NCBI RefSeq assembly: GCF_031312595.1
Contig: NZ_CP133592.1
Location: 2,728,001-2,792,000 of the forward strand
Source of the DNA: Methanolobus sediminis
GTDB lineage: Archaea; Halobacteriota; Methanosarcinia; Methanosarcinales; Methanosarcinaceae
DNA length: 64,000 nt
Direction: 5' to 3'
The notes below the pieces were generated by a model. The model was not told where the DNA came from. It was given only the letters and a program-made list of their open reading frames with translations, and made no database searches. Each line of letters starts with the position of its first letter. The stretch's first letter is position 1. The position numbers and the translations under genes are program-made. Below are positions 54,673 to 59,774 of this stretch, piece after piece.

Positions 54673-54727
54673 ACTAATCAGAACTAAATAGAAAATTTAT
54701 TATGTAGCTATCTTGTTCCTTAGACAG

Positions 54728-56206
54728 ATGGTACCAATAAAAAACGTAAAAACAATTACCCCTGAAAGAAAAACTGATACAGTACACCTATCTTCAATGT
54801 GTTGTGTTCTTCTACTGATGCTGTATTTTTTTACAGCTCAGGCAGGAGCAAATACAGTTGCAGAAATAGGATCAGTTAATACTCCCCATGGTGTTGTCAT
54901 TCTCATTGTTGACGGTTTAAGTTCATATTATACATATCCGGAATACACTCCCTGTGCAATAGACGGATCAGTGCTTAAAAAAGCAGACGTTCCTAAAATG
55001 CAGGAAATGTTTAACAACAGTTGCAGGATACTGGATGTGACAGTTCCTCAGACATTCACAGAAGGAGGGCACTCTGTGATTGCTACAGGATATTCCAGAG
55101 CCGATTCCGAGCTTACAGGCTCATCAGGAACAACAATCTTTGACATTGCCCATGATTACAATTACCTTACTTTTGCGATCATGGAAAAGGGAGATTCATA
55201 TGGATTTTGCAACAAGCAAAATGTAGTGATGCATGATACGGAGAACTCCATAAATGAACCTGAAATGGTCATTGAAACAAATATGCTTACGGAAAATACC
55301 AAAACTATTTCATTTGAAATTACAGACCAAATGCAATCTCATTCTTCTAAATTACAGGAAAAACTCGACCAGTATCCCGAAGGTTCAATTGAACGTTACA
55401 ATGAATACAATAACTGGATCATAGAAACAGGAATTGATATTATTGAATACATGGAAAAAGAGTATCCTGAACAGAACTACATACTTACAATAAATGCAGG
55501 TGCTGTAGATAGTGCTGGCCATTACAAAAAGAACAGTGGTTACGTTGCATGCATTGAGGGATTAGACAACGCAAGCTACTCACTTTATGAAACATGTCTT
55601 GAAAATAACCTGGCTTTTGTACTTACAGGAGATCATGGGATGGCATTCCCTACTGACGATTCAAAAGGAGGACATCAGGCTGAAAAATATTCCGTGATGA
55701 CCGAATCACAAAAAGTTCCACTGGTAATAGCAGCAAACGACATCGAAAATGTTGTAGTGGATAAAGAAGTAGGCCAGGAAGATATCGCACCAACAATCCT
55801 TGAAGTACTAAATATTCCTGGAAAACTGAGACTTGCTGATGGAAAGGCAATTACATTGAAAGAATACACAAATGTTGAAGTAATAATTCCTGAAGAAGGA
55901 GAATTAGTCCTGAGCAAAAATGATGAAATTCTCTTCAGAGATGATGTCAGGGAAAATATTGCATTTCAGGGGCTGGAGCCAGATAATGAATATAAGCTAG
56001 TATTTAAACCCTTTTCTGATCCAGATAATACCGTTCAGCAATTTTTCAATGCAGGATCTGATATTTCACTTAAATTATTAACATCAGAACAGCGTTCCAA
56101 AAGTGATAAATCATATCAAAACTCTCGTTATATAGTAGGAGGAATTCTGATAGGAGCCGTGAATCTTACAGGATTGCTGTTGATACGTAAAGTACTGAAG
56201 GAATAA
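54728..56206 (+). CDS. Alkaline-phosphatase-superfamily membrane/surface protein
   Basis: About 492 residues from the ATG at 54728; a TTG 5 codons upstream is possible. An N-terminal hydrophobic stretch (SSMCCVLLLMLYFFTAQAG) is an export signal. The catalytic domain has the metal-binding VVILIVDGLSS, TFTEGGHSVIATG (nucleophile Thr/Ser region), AVDSAGHY, and LTGDHGMAFP plus GGHQAEKY, as in alkaline phosphatase/sulfatase folds. A beta-sandwich region and a C-terminal TM helix (YIVGGILIGAVNLTGLLLI) follow. Likely a surface-anchored phosphoesterase or phosphoglycan-modifying enzyme. Confidence 0.8.
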   Translation: MVPIKNVKTITPERKTDTVHLSSMCCVLLLMLYFFTAQAGANTVAEIGSVNTPHGVVILIVDGLSSYYTYPEYTPCAIDGSVLKKADVPKMQEMFNNSCRILDVTVPQTFTEGGHSVIATGYSRADSELTGSSGTTIFDIAHDYNYLTFAIMEKGDSYGFCNKQNVVMHDTENSINEPEMVIETNMLTENTKTISFEITDQMQSHSSKLQEKLDQYPEGSIERYNEYNNWIIETGIDIIEYMEKEYPEQNYILTINAGAVDSAGHYKKNSGYVACIEGLDNASYSLYETCLENNLAFVLTGDHGMAFPTDDSKGGHQAEKYSVMTESQKVPLVIAANDIENVVVDKEVGQEDIAPTILEVLNIPGKLRLADGKAITLKEYTNVEVIIPEEGELVLSKNDEILFRDDVRENIAFQGLEPDNEYKLVFKPFSDPDNTVQQFFNAGSDISLKLLTSEQRSKSDKSYQNSRYIVGGILIGAVNLTGLLLIRKVLKE

Positions 56207-57060: not shown

Positions 57061-57142
57061 TTCACAATTGTTAAATACAGTTAGAGAACATATATACTTC
57101 TAATAATGTGTATCTTCAGAAATCGGAATATGGGGAAAACAG

Positions 57143-57367
57143 ATGACAGAAACTAACATCGATGTGAGAGGGCAGACTTGTCCTGTCCCTCTTGTAGAGT
57201 GCCGTAAAGCAATACGAAAAGCTGCCCCTGGCGATGAAATAGTAATCATGGGTACGCATCCTGCATCCAAAAAGGAAATACCCATGGCTTGTGAAGCAAT
57301 GGGACTTGAAGTTCTAGAAGTTGATGAAAACAATAACAAAGAGTGGAAGATTCGTATCAAAAAGTGA
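57143..57367 (+). CDS. tusA: TusA-family sulfurtransferase
   Basis: A 74-residue protein with the TusA motif DVRGQTCPVPLVECRKAI; C13 is the sulfur-carrying cysteine in the CPxP box. TusA relays persulfide sulfur between enzymes. First gene of a four-gene sulfur operon: DsrE-like, IscS-like, IscU-DUF59. Confidence 0.95.
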   Translation: MTETNIDVRGQTCPVPLVECRKAIRKAAPGDEIVIMGTHPASKKEIPMACEAMGLEVLEVDENNNKEWKIRIKK

Positions 57368-57393
57368 AATAATGACGGGGAATGGGTGAATGT

Positions 57394-57813
57394 ATGACAG
57401 ATAAAGCAGTGATAATAGCACATAGTGGCGATCTTGACAAAATATATAGTGCACTTATAGTAGCGAATGGTGCACTTGCCATGGGAATGGATGCTTCTAT
57501 CTTTTTCACATTCTGGGGCCTTCAGTGCCTTAAAAAGAACGGACTTGACAAAGGTCCTCTTTCAAAAATGAATTTACTCGGACTTGGAAAATGGATGGTA
57601 AAAAGCAGAATGAAAAAGGCCAATGTCGTTTCACTTGAAAAGCTGATGGAAGACTACAAAGAACTTGGTGGAAAAGTGATTGCCTGTGAGATGACAATGG
57701 AGATCATGGGAATCAAAGAAGAAGAGCTGGACAGACAGTGGATAGATGAATACGGTGCTGTTGGCACATATATAATGGAAGCAAAGGATGCTAAAATAAC
57801 TCTATTTATCTAA
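57394..57813 (+). CDS. DsrE/DsrF/DrsH-like sulfur-relay protein
   Basis: About 139 residues from the ATG at 57394, which has a GGGTGA ribosome site; the upstream ATG at 57382 is less likely. The fold signature is AVIIAHSGDLDKIYSALIVANGALAMGMDASIFFTFWG and KVIACEMTMEIMGI. Proteins of this class often carry a persulfide on a conserved Cys; here C in VIACEMTM is a candidate. It comes 26 bases after tusA. Confidence 0.88.
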   Translation: MTDKAVIIAHSGDLDKIYSALIVANGALAMGMDASIFFTFWGLQCLKKNGLDKGPLSKMNLLGLGKWMVKSRMKKANVVSLEKLMEDYKELGGKVIACEMTMEIMGIKEEELDRQWIDEYGAVGTYIMEAKDAKITLFI

Positions 57814-57852
57814 GTTTCCTCGAATTTACAAAATGCAAGCAAGGAGTAATAT

Positions 57853-59019
57853 ATGTTAGACAAGATGATTTACCTTGACAATTCAGCTAGTACCCGCCTG
57901 GACGAAAAAGTCCTGGATGCAATGAAACCATATTATTTTGATACCTATGCCGTAGCAACATCCGAATTCGGTTATTCCATGGGTATTGATGCAAAGGAAG
58001 GACTGGAAGAAGCCAGGAAGATAATTGCATCCTCGATTGGTGCAACAGCAGAGGAAATTGTGTTCACATCAGGTGAAACAGAGTCCAGCAACATGGCGAT
58101 CAAAGGTGTTGTCGCAGCTCTTAAGAAAAAGAAGGGCGAACACATAATCGTATCTAAATTAGAGGATTTTGCTGTCCTGAATACTGCTAAGAACCTCGAG
58201 AAACAAGGTTACAGTGTGGATTACATTAGTGTTGATGCAGAAGGTATCGTGGACCTTGAAGAACTCAAAAGCAAGATACGGGAAGATACTGTCCTTGTAT
58301 CCATCCAGCATGCAAACCAGGAAATAGGTACCCTTCAGGATCTGGATGCTATCGCAAAGATATGCAAAGAAAAGGATGTACTGTTCCATACCGATGCAAC
58401 ACACAGCTACGTGAGAGTAGCGATCGATGTCTCAAAAACACCCGTCGATCTGATCAGTATGTCAGCACACACAATCCATGGACCAAGAGGTGTAGGTGCA
58501 TTGTATGTCCGCAAAGGGACCCCCCTCATCAAATGGATGGATGGTGGATATCAGGAAACCGACCGTCGTGCAGGACTTGAGAATATTCCAGGTGCAGTAG
58601 GATTTGCAAAAGCAGTTGAACTTGTTACTGAAAAAGAGACTAAGTTCCTTGAATCACTCAGGGATTATACTATAGAGAGAGTCTTTGAAGAGATACCACA
58701 TGTAACCCTAAACGGAAGCAAAACACAGAGGACACCACAAAATGCAAACATCACATTCCACTATGTAGAAGGTGAATCCATGACACTGCACCTTGATATG
58801 AGAGGTTTTGCAGTAAGTACAGGTTCAGCATGTTTCAGCCGTTCACTTGAAGCCAGCCATGTAATACTTGGTATCGGTGGTGACCATGAAAGAGCACACG
58901 GCTCCATTAGATTCACATTTGGGCGTTATAACAGCATGGACGACGTAGATGCTGTTGTTGATGCAATCAAGGAAATAGTTAGTCAGCTAAGGGCAATCAG
59001 TCCCCTGTACAACAAATGA
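57853..59019 (+). CDS. IscS/NifS-like cysteine-desulfurase homologue lacking the PLP lysine
   Basis: A 388-residue class V aminotransferase fold: YLDNSASTRLDEKVLDAM, FTSGETESSNMAIKG, VSIQHANQEIGTLQ, FHTDATHSYVRVAID, and C327 in the loop STGSACFSRSLEASHVIL. At the position where functional desulfurases have SAHK (the Schiff-base lysine), this reads SAHTIHGPRGVGALY, with Thr at residue 207. Without this lysine PLP chemistry is unlikely. A. fulgidus IscS is also known to lack it (Asp) and to act with IscU by means of its cysteine. The surrounding TusA/DsrE genes suggest another sulfur source. Confidence 0.92.
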   Translation: MLDKMIYLDNSASTRLDEKVLDAMKPYYFDTYAVATSEFGYSMGIDAKEGLEEARKIIASSIGATAEEIVFTSGETESSNMAIKGVVAALKKKKGEHIIVSKLEDFAVLNTAKNLEKQGYSVDYISVDAEGIVDLEELKSKIREDTVLVSIQHANQEIGTLQDLDAIAKICKEKDVLFHTDATHSYVRVAIDVSKTPVDLISMSAHTIHGPRGVGALYVRKGTPLIKWMDGGYQETDRRAGLENIPGAVGFAKAVELVTEKETKFLESLRDYTIERVFEEIPHVTLNGSKTQRTPQNANITFHYVEGESMTLHLDMRGFAVSTGSACFSRSLEASHVILGIGGDHERAHGSIRFTFGRYNSMDDVDAVVDAIKEIVSQLRAISPLYNK

Positions 59020-59028
59020 GGTGAGAGA

Positions 59029-59664
59029 ATGAAATTCCCGTACACAGAAAAGGTACTTGAACATTTTAAGAATCCACGTAATGTAGGCAAGCTGGAGAAT
59101 CCTGATGGAAAAGGACTTGAAGGTAGTCCAGCCTGTGGTGACATGGTTGCTGTTTACCTGCAGGTTAATCCTGATACACAGATAATTGAGGATATAAAAT
59201 TTGAGTCATACGGATGTGCTTCTAATATTGCAACAGCTTCCATAATCACTGAGCTTGCTAAAGGCAAGACAATTGAGGAAGCAAAAAAGATCAGCTGGCA
59301 GGAAGCTACTGAAGAACTTGGAGGACTTCCACCTGTGAAAGCCCATTGTTCAGTACTTGCTGTAGAAGGACTTCGTGCCGCCATCAGAGATTATGAGGAA
59401 AAGCATGGTCTTGTAAGCGAACAGGAACCAACCACTGTTGATGTGATCAGAAGCAGGCTCAAACATGTCATGAACCCAATGGCCGGACTTGACATTATCA
59501 GGACCGAGCTGGTCACTAAAATGGAGATCAATGACGGGGTTGTCAGGGTGCTTATTGACCTGCCGTCAAACCACCAGTTTGCAGCAAACATCAAAGAGGA
59601 GGTCACCGAGAAGCTTGAATCTCTCTGGGATGTTAATGAGGTAAATGTTGTCTTTACTGAGTAA
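59029..59664 (+). CDS. iscU: IscU scaffold fused to a DUF59/MIP18-like domain
   Basis: A 211-residue protein. The N-terminal IscU domain (about 1-126) has the cluster residues C36 with D38 (SPACGD), C63 (SYGCASN) and C107 (HCSVLA). The C-terminal part (about 137-211, VDVIRSRLKHVMNPMAGLDIIRTELV and INDGVVRVLIDLPSNHQF) resembles DUF59/MIP18 iron-sulfur assembly proteins, though its usual DPE motif is NPM here. Ten bases after the IscS-like gene, so the two are co-expressed. Confidence 0.9.
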   Translation: MKFPYTEKVLEHFKNPRNVGKLENPDGKGLEGSPACGDMVAVYLQVNPDTQIIEDIKFESYGCASNIATASIITELAKGKTIEEAKKISWQEATEELGGLPPVKAHCSVLAVEGLRAAIRDYEEKHGLVSEQEPTTVDVIRSRLKHVMNPMAGLDIIRTELVTKMEINDGVVRVLIDLPSNHQFAANIKEEVTEKLESLWDVNEVNVVFTE

Positions 59665-59672
59665 AGAAAAAA

Positions 59673-59697
59673 GAAGTGGTGCCTTACTTACCACTTC
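59673..59697 (+). terminator. Terminator of the sulfur operon
   Basis: GAAGTGGT/ACCACTTC stem with a 9-base loop directly after the stop codon of the IscU gene. Confidence 0.55.
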
Positions 59698-59774
59698 TCA
59701 TTCATTATCCTAATTCAACTTTTTTAATGCCACTTATGAAAAACCAGGACATCGTTAGTAATTGAGGAATTGCT

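Follow-up and report, generated by a model that had tools for sequence, protein, structure and literature searches.

A TusA-DsrE-IscS-IscU operon in Methanolobus sediminis and a candidate PLP-independent branch of iron-sulfur cluster assembly

The window analyzed here, 64,000 nucleotides of the Methanolobus sediminis genome (NZ_CP133592.1, positions 2,728,001 to 2,792,000), carries on its forward strand (57143-59664) four genes for a TusA protein, a DsrE/DrsE_2 protein, an IscS homologue that lacks the catalytic lysine and an IscU-DUF59 fusion, with intergenic gaps of 26, 39, and 9 bases. On balance, their sequences and genomic company favor reading the operon as a branch of ISC (iron-sulfur cluster)-type assembly that would be independent of pyridoxal phosphate (PLP), in which TusA, with DsrE, would supply IscU with sulfur while an IscS that does without PLP serves as the platform. 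Linkage to TusA and DsrE follows the Lys-less classes of IscS, not the Lys-containing class. The earlier note on this DNA, made from its sequence alone, had already described the four genes as a single operon, and the open reading frames, the family profiles, the short gaps and the recurrence of the set within the family of the window genome and beyond bear out that description. The operon and its flanking signals are as follows.

57088..57098, + strand: TATA-box-like stretch acatatatact, a possible archaeal promoter (by-eye reading)
57143..57367, + strand: tusA, 74 aa, sulfur carrier with the catalytic Cys13 in CPVP (PF01206, 80.3 bits against a cut-off of 28.6)
57394..57813, + strand: dsrE-like (DrsE_2) sulfur carrier, 139 aa, with Cys98 in ACEMTMEIMG (PF13686, 126.4 bits against a cut-off of 25)
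57853..59019, + strand: T-type IscS homologue, 388 aa (PF00266, E 2.8e-77)
59029..59664, + strand: IscU scaffold fused to DUF59/FeS_assembly_P, 211 aa (PF01592, 152.2 bits; PF01883, 46.1 bits)
59672..59698, + strand: 10-bp hairpin after the operon, a weak terminator candidate (fold z -2.65)

The first product combines the PF01206 profile with the CPxP cysteine of TusA proteins. The second, whose gene has an alternative upstream ATG at 57382, scores under the equivalog cut-off of NCBIfam DsrE2 (NF047629; 73.6 against 210 bits) and belongs to the wider PF13686/PF02635 families. The fourth comprises a NifU_N domain (residues 5-126) and a FeS_assembly_P/DUF59 domain (residues 139-207) and has the three cluster cysteines (Cys36, Cys63, and Cys107) and the CGD aspartate of an IscU scaffold, the latter within ACGD, as well as an LPPVK motif. 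A fold search with a model of the third product returned the IscS fold, with E. coli IscS (3lvm) as the best match, and its best NCBIfam hit was NifS (447 bits, under the cut-off of 530.75). The geometry of the AlphaFold pocket was set aside, as the model had a mean pLDDT (predicted local distance difference test) of 71.6 and residues 1-3, 32-42, 74-81, 207-212, and 318-349 fell below 50. The loss of the lysine reported in the earlier note is confirmed: the window protein reads SAHT at the position of SSHK in the Lys-containing paralogue that this genome also encodes, an alignment that also holds for solved IscS relatives, so that Thr207 (codon 58471-58473) occupies the site of the Schiff-base lysine of PLP cysteine desulfurases. 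Asp105, Gln156, and His184 are further features of the protein, and the persulfide cysteine of the mobile loop, Cys327 (codon 58831-58833), is retained within STGSAC327F. A terminator had been placed at the end of the operon; a hairpin does stand there, yet it is followed by CATTCATTAT with no clean T run, and a scan for such sites found 4 of them against 2.2 expected in shuffles, leaving the terminator weakly supported.

Three classes of IscS were distinguished: the T-type of the window, the D-type of Archaeoglobus fulgidus and the Lys-containing K-type. D-type proteins retain His104, carry Ala for Gln183 and, in nearly all cases, have Asn-Asp at the His-Lys site; the window IscS, which has His-Thr at that site, falls outside this class, defined by Asn-Asp and by membership in the D clade. 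Using the A. fulgidus IscS as a query in 294 genomes of the phylum, we took the top 110 matches (down to E 1.8e-119) with their flanks, which correspond to 45 D-type and 65 K-type distinct loci once the overlapping L156 and L205 are counted as one. TusA and/or DsrE genes were present on the same strand within 1.6 kb of the IscS gene at 44 of the 45 D-type loci (28 with both, 13 with TusA only, 3 with DsrE only, 1 with none; 12 family labels), at 54 of 65 T-type loci of the window's family and at 0 of the 65 K-type loci. A maximum-sensitivity scan found no further TusA beside the K-type genes, one of whose 65 loci has less than 1 kb of upstream sequence. Of the two partners, TusA is the more constant, and DsrE is accessory. 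Alternatively, TusA and DsrE could belong to a tRNA-thiolation or selenium relay of the TusABCD or YedF kind and use the IscS homologue to dock on. The window TusA indeed resembles both tRNA-thiolation TusA and YedF, under the cut-offs of both, but IscU lies beside IscS in T-type loci wherever the contig reaches and in 28 of the 30 D-type loci L148-L177, which makes such a role very improbable. As for selenium, selD exceeded its cut-off in only 1 of 63 genomes with T- or D-type IscS, the host genome being under it, and a YedF-like relay was rejected as the main role on this ground. As a separate observation, a D-type TusA-DsrE-IscS operon faces a K-type IscS gene on the opposite strand at one locus (L205, G305:C105).

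The PLP pocket of T-type IscS is remodeled in the same way throughout the class. We take His104, Asn155, Gln183, and Thr243' of IscS to be PLP-contact residues, and T-type proteins depart from this set: in 74 T rows aligned on E. coli numbering (63 from the family and 11 from outside it), His104 is replaced by Asp, Asn155 by Gln and Gln183 by His in all 74, and Thr243' by Leu, Val, or Ile in 70. Other pocket sites are mostly retained (Thr76 in 73 rows, Asp180 in 74, Ser203 in 62, His205 in 72). These rows and the 65 K rows used below (of which 64 belong to the phylum set and one to L129) exclude genome_contigs duplicates (L111-L127, L138, and L141), L142, L205, and rows shorter than 330 aa. 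Within the family, Thr207 is found in 66 of 66 rows, the window included, as are Gln156 and His184, while Asp105, at the site of the PLP-stacking His, and Cys327 are each found in 65 of 65, one row being cut at two sites. Identical replacements across the class are not what the decay of an enzyme would produce, so the fixed pocket suggests a changed function, and the window IscS is predicted to have no PLP desulfurase function.

In a sample of 149 genomes of the order, window genome included, close relatives of the window IscS (IscS1; 69-95% identity) were confined to its family, where they are present in 66 of 75 genomes, its own included (two are cut by contig ends); the next-best matches in the order genomes reached at most 52% identity. 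The IscU-DUF59 fusion was found in the same 66 genomes, and DsrE and TusA proteins in 64 of them each. Among the nine family genomes that lack IscS1, TusA proteins were found in two (G106 and G139) and DsrE gave only a 42-residue match of 33% identity (G139). At the loci of the 65 relatives, TusA and DsrE stand beside IscS1 on the same strand in 53 and TusA only in one (G144, where DsrE lies approximately 4 kb from the iscS1 start, on the other side); the 11 with neither nearby are nine genomes of the genus labeled g5, G123, whose contig begins inside iscS1, and G088, discussed below. The operon is split in all nine g5 genomes, with both halves kept and TusA and DsrE still adjacent to each other, some 110-185 kb away from IscS1-IscU in the seven genomes that have both on one contig. 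The cysteines of the four proteins are equally conserved, as family rows have TusA Cys13 and DsrE Cys98 in 55 of 55 and IscU Cys36, Cys63, and Cys107 in 65 of 65. The TusA cysteine is also present in 82 of 82 T and 43 of 43 D rows, duplicates included, and the DsrE cysteine in its strict motif in 79 of 80 T and 28 of 33 D frames; by eye, five of the six misses have it and L150 does not. The loss of the catalytic Lys and of several PLP contacts could be taken to mean that IscS1 is a functionless paralogue in decay, but its sequence identity across the family and its invariant replacement residues make this hardly credible, and IscS1-IscU is the only IscS/IscU-type pair found in the nine g5 genomes. 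Several g3 and g5 genomes also carry two further TusA genes approximately 9-14 kb apart (for example, G019:C1:261637 and 274297).

A scan of named genomes with the window IscS, which reaches close relatives only, returned 37 loci, 31 of them T-type, with TusA and DsrE nearby in 25, TusA only in 2, DsrE only in 1 and neither in 3. Twelve are labeled outside the family: Methanomassiliicoccaceae (three), Altiarchaeales, Methanofastidiosia, Methanothrix, unclassified Euryarchaeota, and five bacteria (three Chloroflexi, one Dehalococcoidales, one Thermoflexia), most of them metagenome-assembled genomes (MAGs) whose taxon labels may be wrong. TusA is adjacent in nine of the 12, with DsrE also in seven, and in the other three IscS lies at most 160 bases from a contig end. 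The gene order can differ, being IscS-IscU-TusA-DsrE in the Chloroflexi-labeled MAGs L134 and L139 and IscS-IscU-TusA in L132 and L135. The other neighbor genes of the window were not found beside the cassettes from outside the family, so the four-gene set is the unit. One Altiarchaeales-labeled contig (L129) bears, in addition to a T-type operon, a Lys-containing IscS with IscU that starts 2.7 kb after the start of the T-type IscS. Trees were built from 26 chosen T rows, 45 D rows and every second full-length K row (34), and again with five trait columns left out and L139, L142, and L209 also dropped. The T and D types each form one clade (SH-aLRT support of 99-100). A free quick search placed the K rows between them, and a tree constrained to join T and D was 18.8 log units better and was not rejected (p-AU 0.83). 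We therefore withdrew the idea of two independent lysine losses; one ancestral Lys-less operon is, from these alignments, at least as likely as two losses. Among the neighbors of the operon in the window is a protein of the alkaline phosphatase superfamily (54713-56203; PF01676/PF00884), membrane-anchored as judged by eye, which is a repeated upstream neighbor of the operon in genomes of g1 and g8.

The face of IscS that would receive TusA also differs by class. In E. coli, the IscS substitutions W45R, E49A, and D52R abolish TusA binding, and Arg27 and Arg31 of TusA bridge to Glu49 and Asp52 (PMC2854127). With the contact positions fixed from that account before counting, position 45 was hydrophobic in 74 of 74 T and 41 of 45 D rows (115 of 119 Lys-less rows overall) and in 6 of 65 K rows, 33 of which have Arg. 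A class difference in the direction expected of a TusA partner is thus supported at this position by the alignments. The pair formed by TusA position 31 and IscS position 49 is basic-acidic in 62 of 62 T-type pairs; in the D-type, TusA31 is acidic in 39 of 41 pairs and IscS49 is non-acidic in 35 of 41 (basic in 18), a class-level change on both sides and perhaps one event. The helix of IscS that contacts IscU in E. coli is kept at positions 309, 311, and 312 in 74 of 74 T and 45 of 45 D rows.

The earlier note had gone further and suggested that the operon may replace cysteine desulfuration, which is too strong for this host. Its genome (2.80 Mb, 99.97% complete) retains a Lys-containing IscS (IscS2, at 1639149) directly before a second IscU (IscU2, at 1640327), a further IscS-like protein with the Lys at 914906 and a member of the SufS family whose score of 516 bits exceeds its cut-off. 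The operon therefore adds to cysteine desulfuration as a parallel system and has not taken its place. A second TusA-family match lies away from the operon (C1:184011-184223), in an open frame of 175 aa. The presence of IscS2-IscU2 and SufS also gives some footing to an indirect cysteine route, in which TusA would be loaded by one of these normal desulfurases elsewhere in the cell and the operon would distribute the sulfur to a second scaffold. The same holds for genus g5, where a SufS-family protein of G019 passes the cut-off and all nine genomes have further IscS2 matches of approximately 30% identity. The Arg that half of the K-type archaeal proteins carry at TusA-contact position 45 speaks against such loading, as does A. 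fulgidus (G253, identified through one IscS copy that is 100% identical to the 4eb5 sequence), which has the same gene set. It encodes two D-type IscS copies, one in the order TusA-DsrE-IscS-IscU and the other with a shortened DsrE and no adjacent TusA. A search of its genome found no other protein matching IscS2 better than E 1e-11, whereas the same search finds SufS-like proteins elsewhere at about E 1e-33; thus, neither a Lys-containing IscS nor a SufS seems to be present in that cell. We give the indirect route a small chance of being correct. In one of the A. fulgidus copies a second DsrE-like protein (PF13686; L292:5190-5585, - strand) lies downstream of IscU.

The reading we favor, a PLP-independent branch, can be laid out as a sequence of steps. 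TusA, helped by the DsrE-like protein where it is present, would carry sulfane sulfur as a persulfide and dock on the IscS homologue at the E. coli-type TusA site. The flow of sulfur would be reversed with respect to E. coli, passing from TusA to Cys327 of the mobile loop of IscS or directly to IscU. On this reading, the IscS homologue would have given up persulfide production from cysteine and been kept as a platform for docking, as an acceptor of persulfide and possibly as a ligand of the cluster. The IscU-DUF59 protein would then assemble the cluster and pass it on through the fused DUF59 domain, as a built-in delivery module. Docking, the direction of transfer, assembly on IscU and the role of DUF59 are steps that we infer. 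How TusA is loaded is the weakest point of the scheme, with sulfide, polysulfide or another desulfurase as candidate sources and the DsrE-like protein as a putative helper upstream of TusA. In Metallosphaera, transfer of the sulfur group runs from DsrE3A to TusA but not in the opposite direction (PMC8551704), and sulfide as a source for cluster assembly is supported by work on SMS and on methanococci (PMC12192291, PMC12584684). The proposal of the earlier note that TusA and DsrE supply cluster assembly has gained genomic support, namely from the class-specific linkage, the units that were rearranged but kept and the class-dependent TusA-contact position. We advance more tentatively, as a possible extension, that Lys-less IscS represents a separate mode of sulfur input, in which inorganic sulfur would travel as persulfide on TusA (with DsrE) to a PLP-free IscS by a reversal of the IscS-to-TusA transfer. 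The former PLP pocket of the T-type (Asp105, His184, and His206, near Cys327) may then be a metal or persulfide site, and the mode, which may be old, would be common to Archaeoglobus, many methanogens, and some Chloroflexota.

Several observations weigh against the PLP-independent branch. IscS position 49 is acidic in 74 of 74 T and 37 of 65 K rows and variable in the D-type (acidic in 8 of 45), and position 52 does not discriminate between classes (acidic in 60 of 74 T, 43 of 45 D, and 54 of 65 K rows). On the TusA side, the residues packing against Trp45 differ from those of E. coli: position 55 is Ala in the T-type and mostly Trp in the D-type, and position 58 is Ala or Ser in the T-type and Arg, Lys, or His in the D-type. 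The Asp45 site, moreover, is occupied by His in 62 of 62 T-type TusA rows. The linkage itself may be one old association, as T and D are possibly one clade, in which case the locus counts are not independent events. The joint absence of all genes from the nine IscS1-less family genomes is weak evidence, because one deletion can remove a contiguous operon, and we rejected it as a strong argument. In the proteome of Methanosarcina acetivorans, IscS1 is marked as detected in a table, yet only IscS2 and IscU2 are consistently so (PMC7585200). Finally, the earlier note had named conservation of the operon as one check, and although the four genes recur across the family and beyond, the contrary case of IscS1-IscU with neither TusA nor DsrE, of the kind that the note would have taken as a refutation, occurs once in 66 genomes. 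This genome, G088, is the one real counterexample: both carriers are absent genome-wide from its draft assembly, the PPase-TusA-DsrE segment is missing and a PGM-like gene adjoins iscS1, ending approximately 150 bases upstream (L104/L124), through natural loss or assembly error.

That G088 manages without TusA and DsrE would suit the main rival, which is compatible with much of the data. Here the Lys-less IscS would do no more than lend its loop Cys as a temporary ligand to a [2Fe-2S] cluster built from free sulfide on IscU, and TusA and DsrE would have another sulfur task and have just the operon in common with it. The inactive A. fulgidus IscS has been proposed to act as a cluster ligand only, as reported in PMC7585200, which also discusses this model for IscS1 and suggests an A. 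fulgidus-like role for it, and structures of A. fulgidus IscS-IscU exist (4eb5 and 4eb7). A mere sharing of the operon fits less well with a TusA/DsrE linkage that is class-specific, with a TusA-contact position that tracks class and with split operons that keep both halves. For these reasons we consider the cluster-ligand model unlikely, with a modest chance of being right.

The closest described relative of the window system is IscS1-IscU1 of M. acetivorans (MA0808-MA0807), likewise a Lys-less IscS1 with STGSACFS and a 24.2-kDa IscU1 (Deere et al., 2020; PMC7585200). The iscS1-iscU1 pair shares its cluster with four more genes, whose function is unknown, and IscS1 formed inclusion bodies (PMC7585200). 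The main text of that account has no TusA, DUF59, DsrE, SirA, "sulfurtransferase" or "sulfur carrier", and no sulfur relay is proposed there. The loss of the Lys and the gene pair are, thus, already known in M. acetivorans. In A. fulgidus (PDB 4eb5, 4eb7, 4hvk, and 4r5f), a Lys-less IscS with a loop Cys also stands beside IscU, and TusA-DsrE precede one of the two copies. It differs from the window in its Asn-Asp at the His-Lys site, its Ala for Gln183, its retained His104 and its separate IscS clade; in addition, its IscU of 156 aa is too short for a fused DUF59. The archaeal minimal iron-sulfur (MIS) system, MisS-MisU, has the same two-protein IscS-IscU core, but it is described with a cysteine desulfurase (PMC12192291, PMC12442378), whereas the window protein lacks the catalytic Lys and is linked to sulfur carriers. 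In E. coli, TusA docks near the loop Cys of IscS, as proposed here, although the IscS there is a working PLP enzyme and passes sulfur on to TusA, for use in tRNA thiolation (PMC2854127). The DsrE3A-TusA system of Metallosphaera and tusA-dsrE2 of sulfur oxidizers share with our proposal a DsrE-type protein that hands sulfur to TusA; they serve, however, sulfur oxidation with Hdr, and no IscS or IscU is named with them in the part of PMC8551704 drawn on here. A search of open-access literature, with subscription papers mostly outside it, turned up neither the linkage of TusA and DsrE to Lys-less IscS in archaea and bacteria nor the invariant pocket of the T-type nor the altered TusA-contact face. 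Of the pathway that the earlier note had called not well described in methanogens, the Lys loss and the gene pair are in print, and the TusA/DsrE linkage was not found there in that search.

How sulfur is supplied to iron-sulfur assembly in archaea without, or beside, cysteine desulfurases is an open question, and for Methanococcus it has been stated that the factors channeling sulfide to the cluster machinery are unknown (PMC7585200). The class-specific linkage names TusA and DsrE as likely sulfur donors for Lys-less IscS and may explain the supply of sulfur without the breakdown of cysteine. With only four proteins, the system is small enough to test in vitro, and M. acetivorans, which is amenable to genetics, offers a host for tests in the cell.

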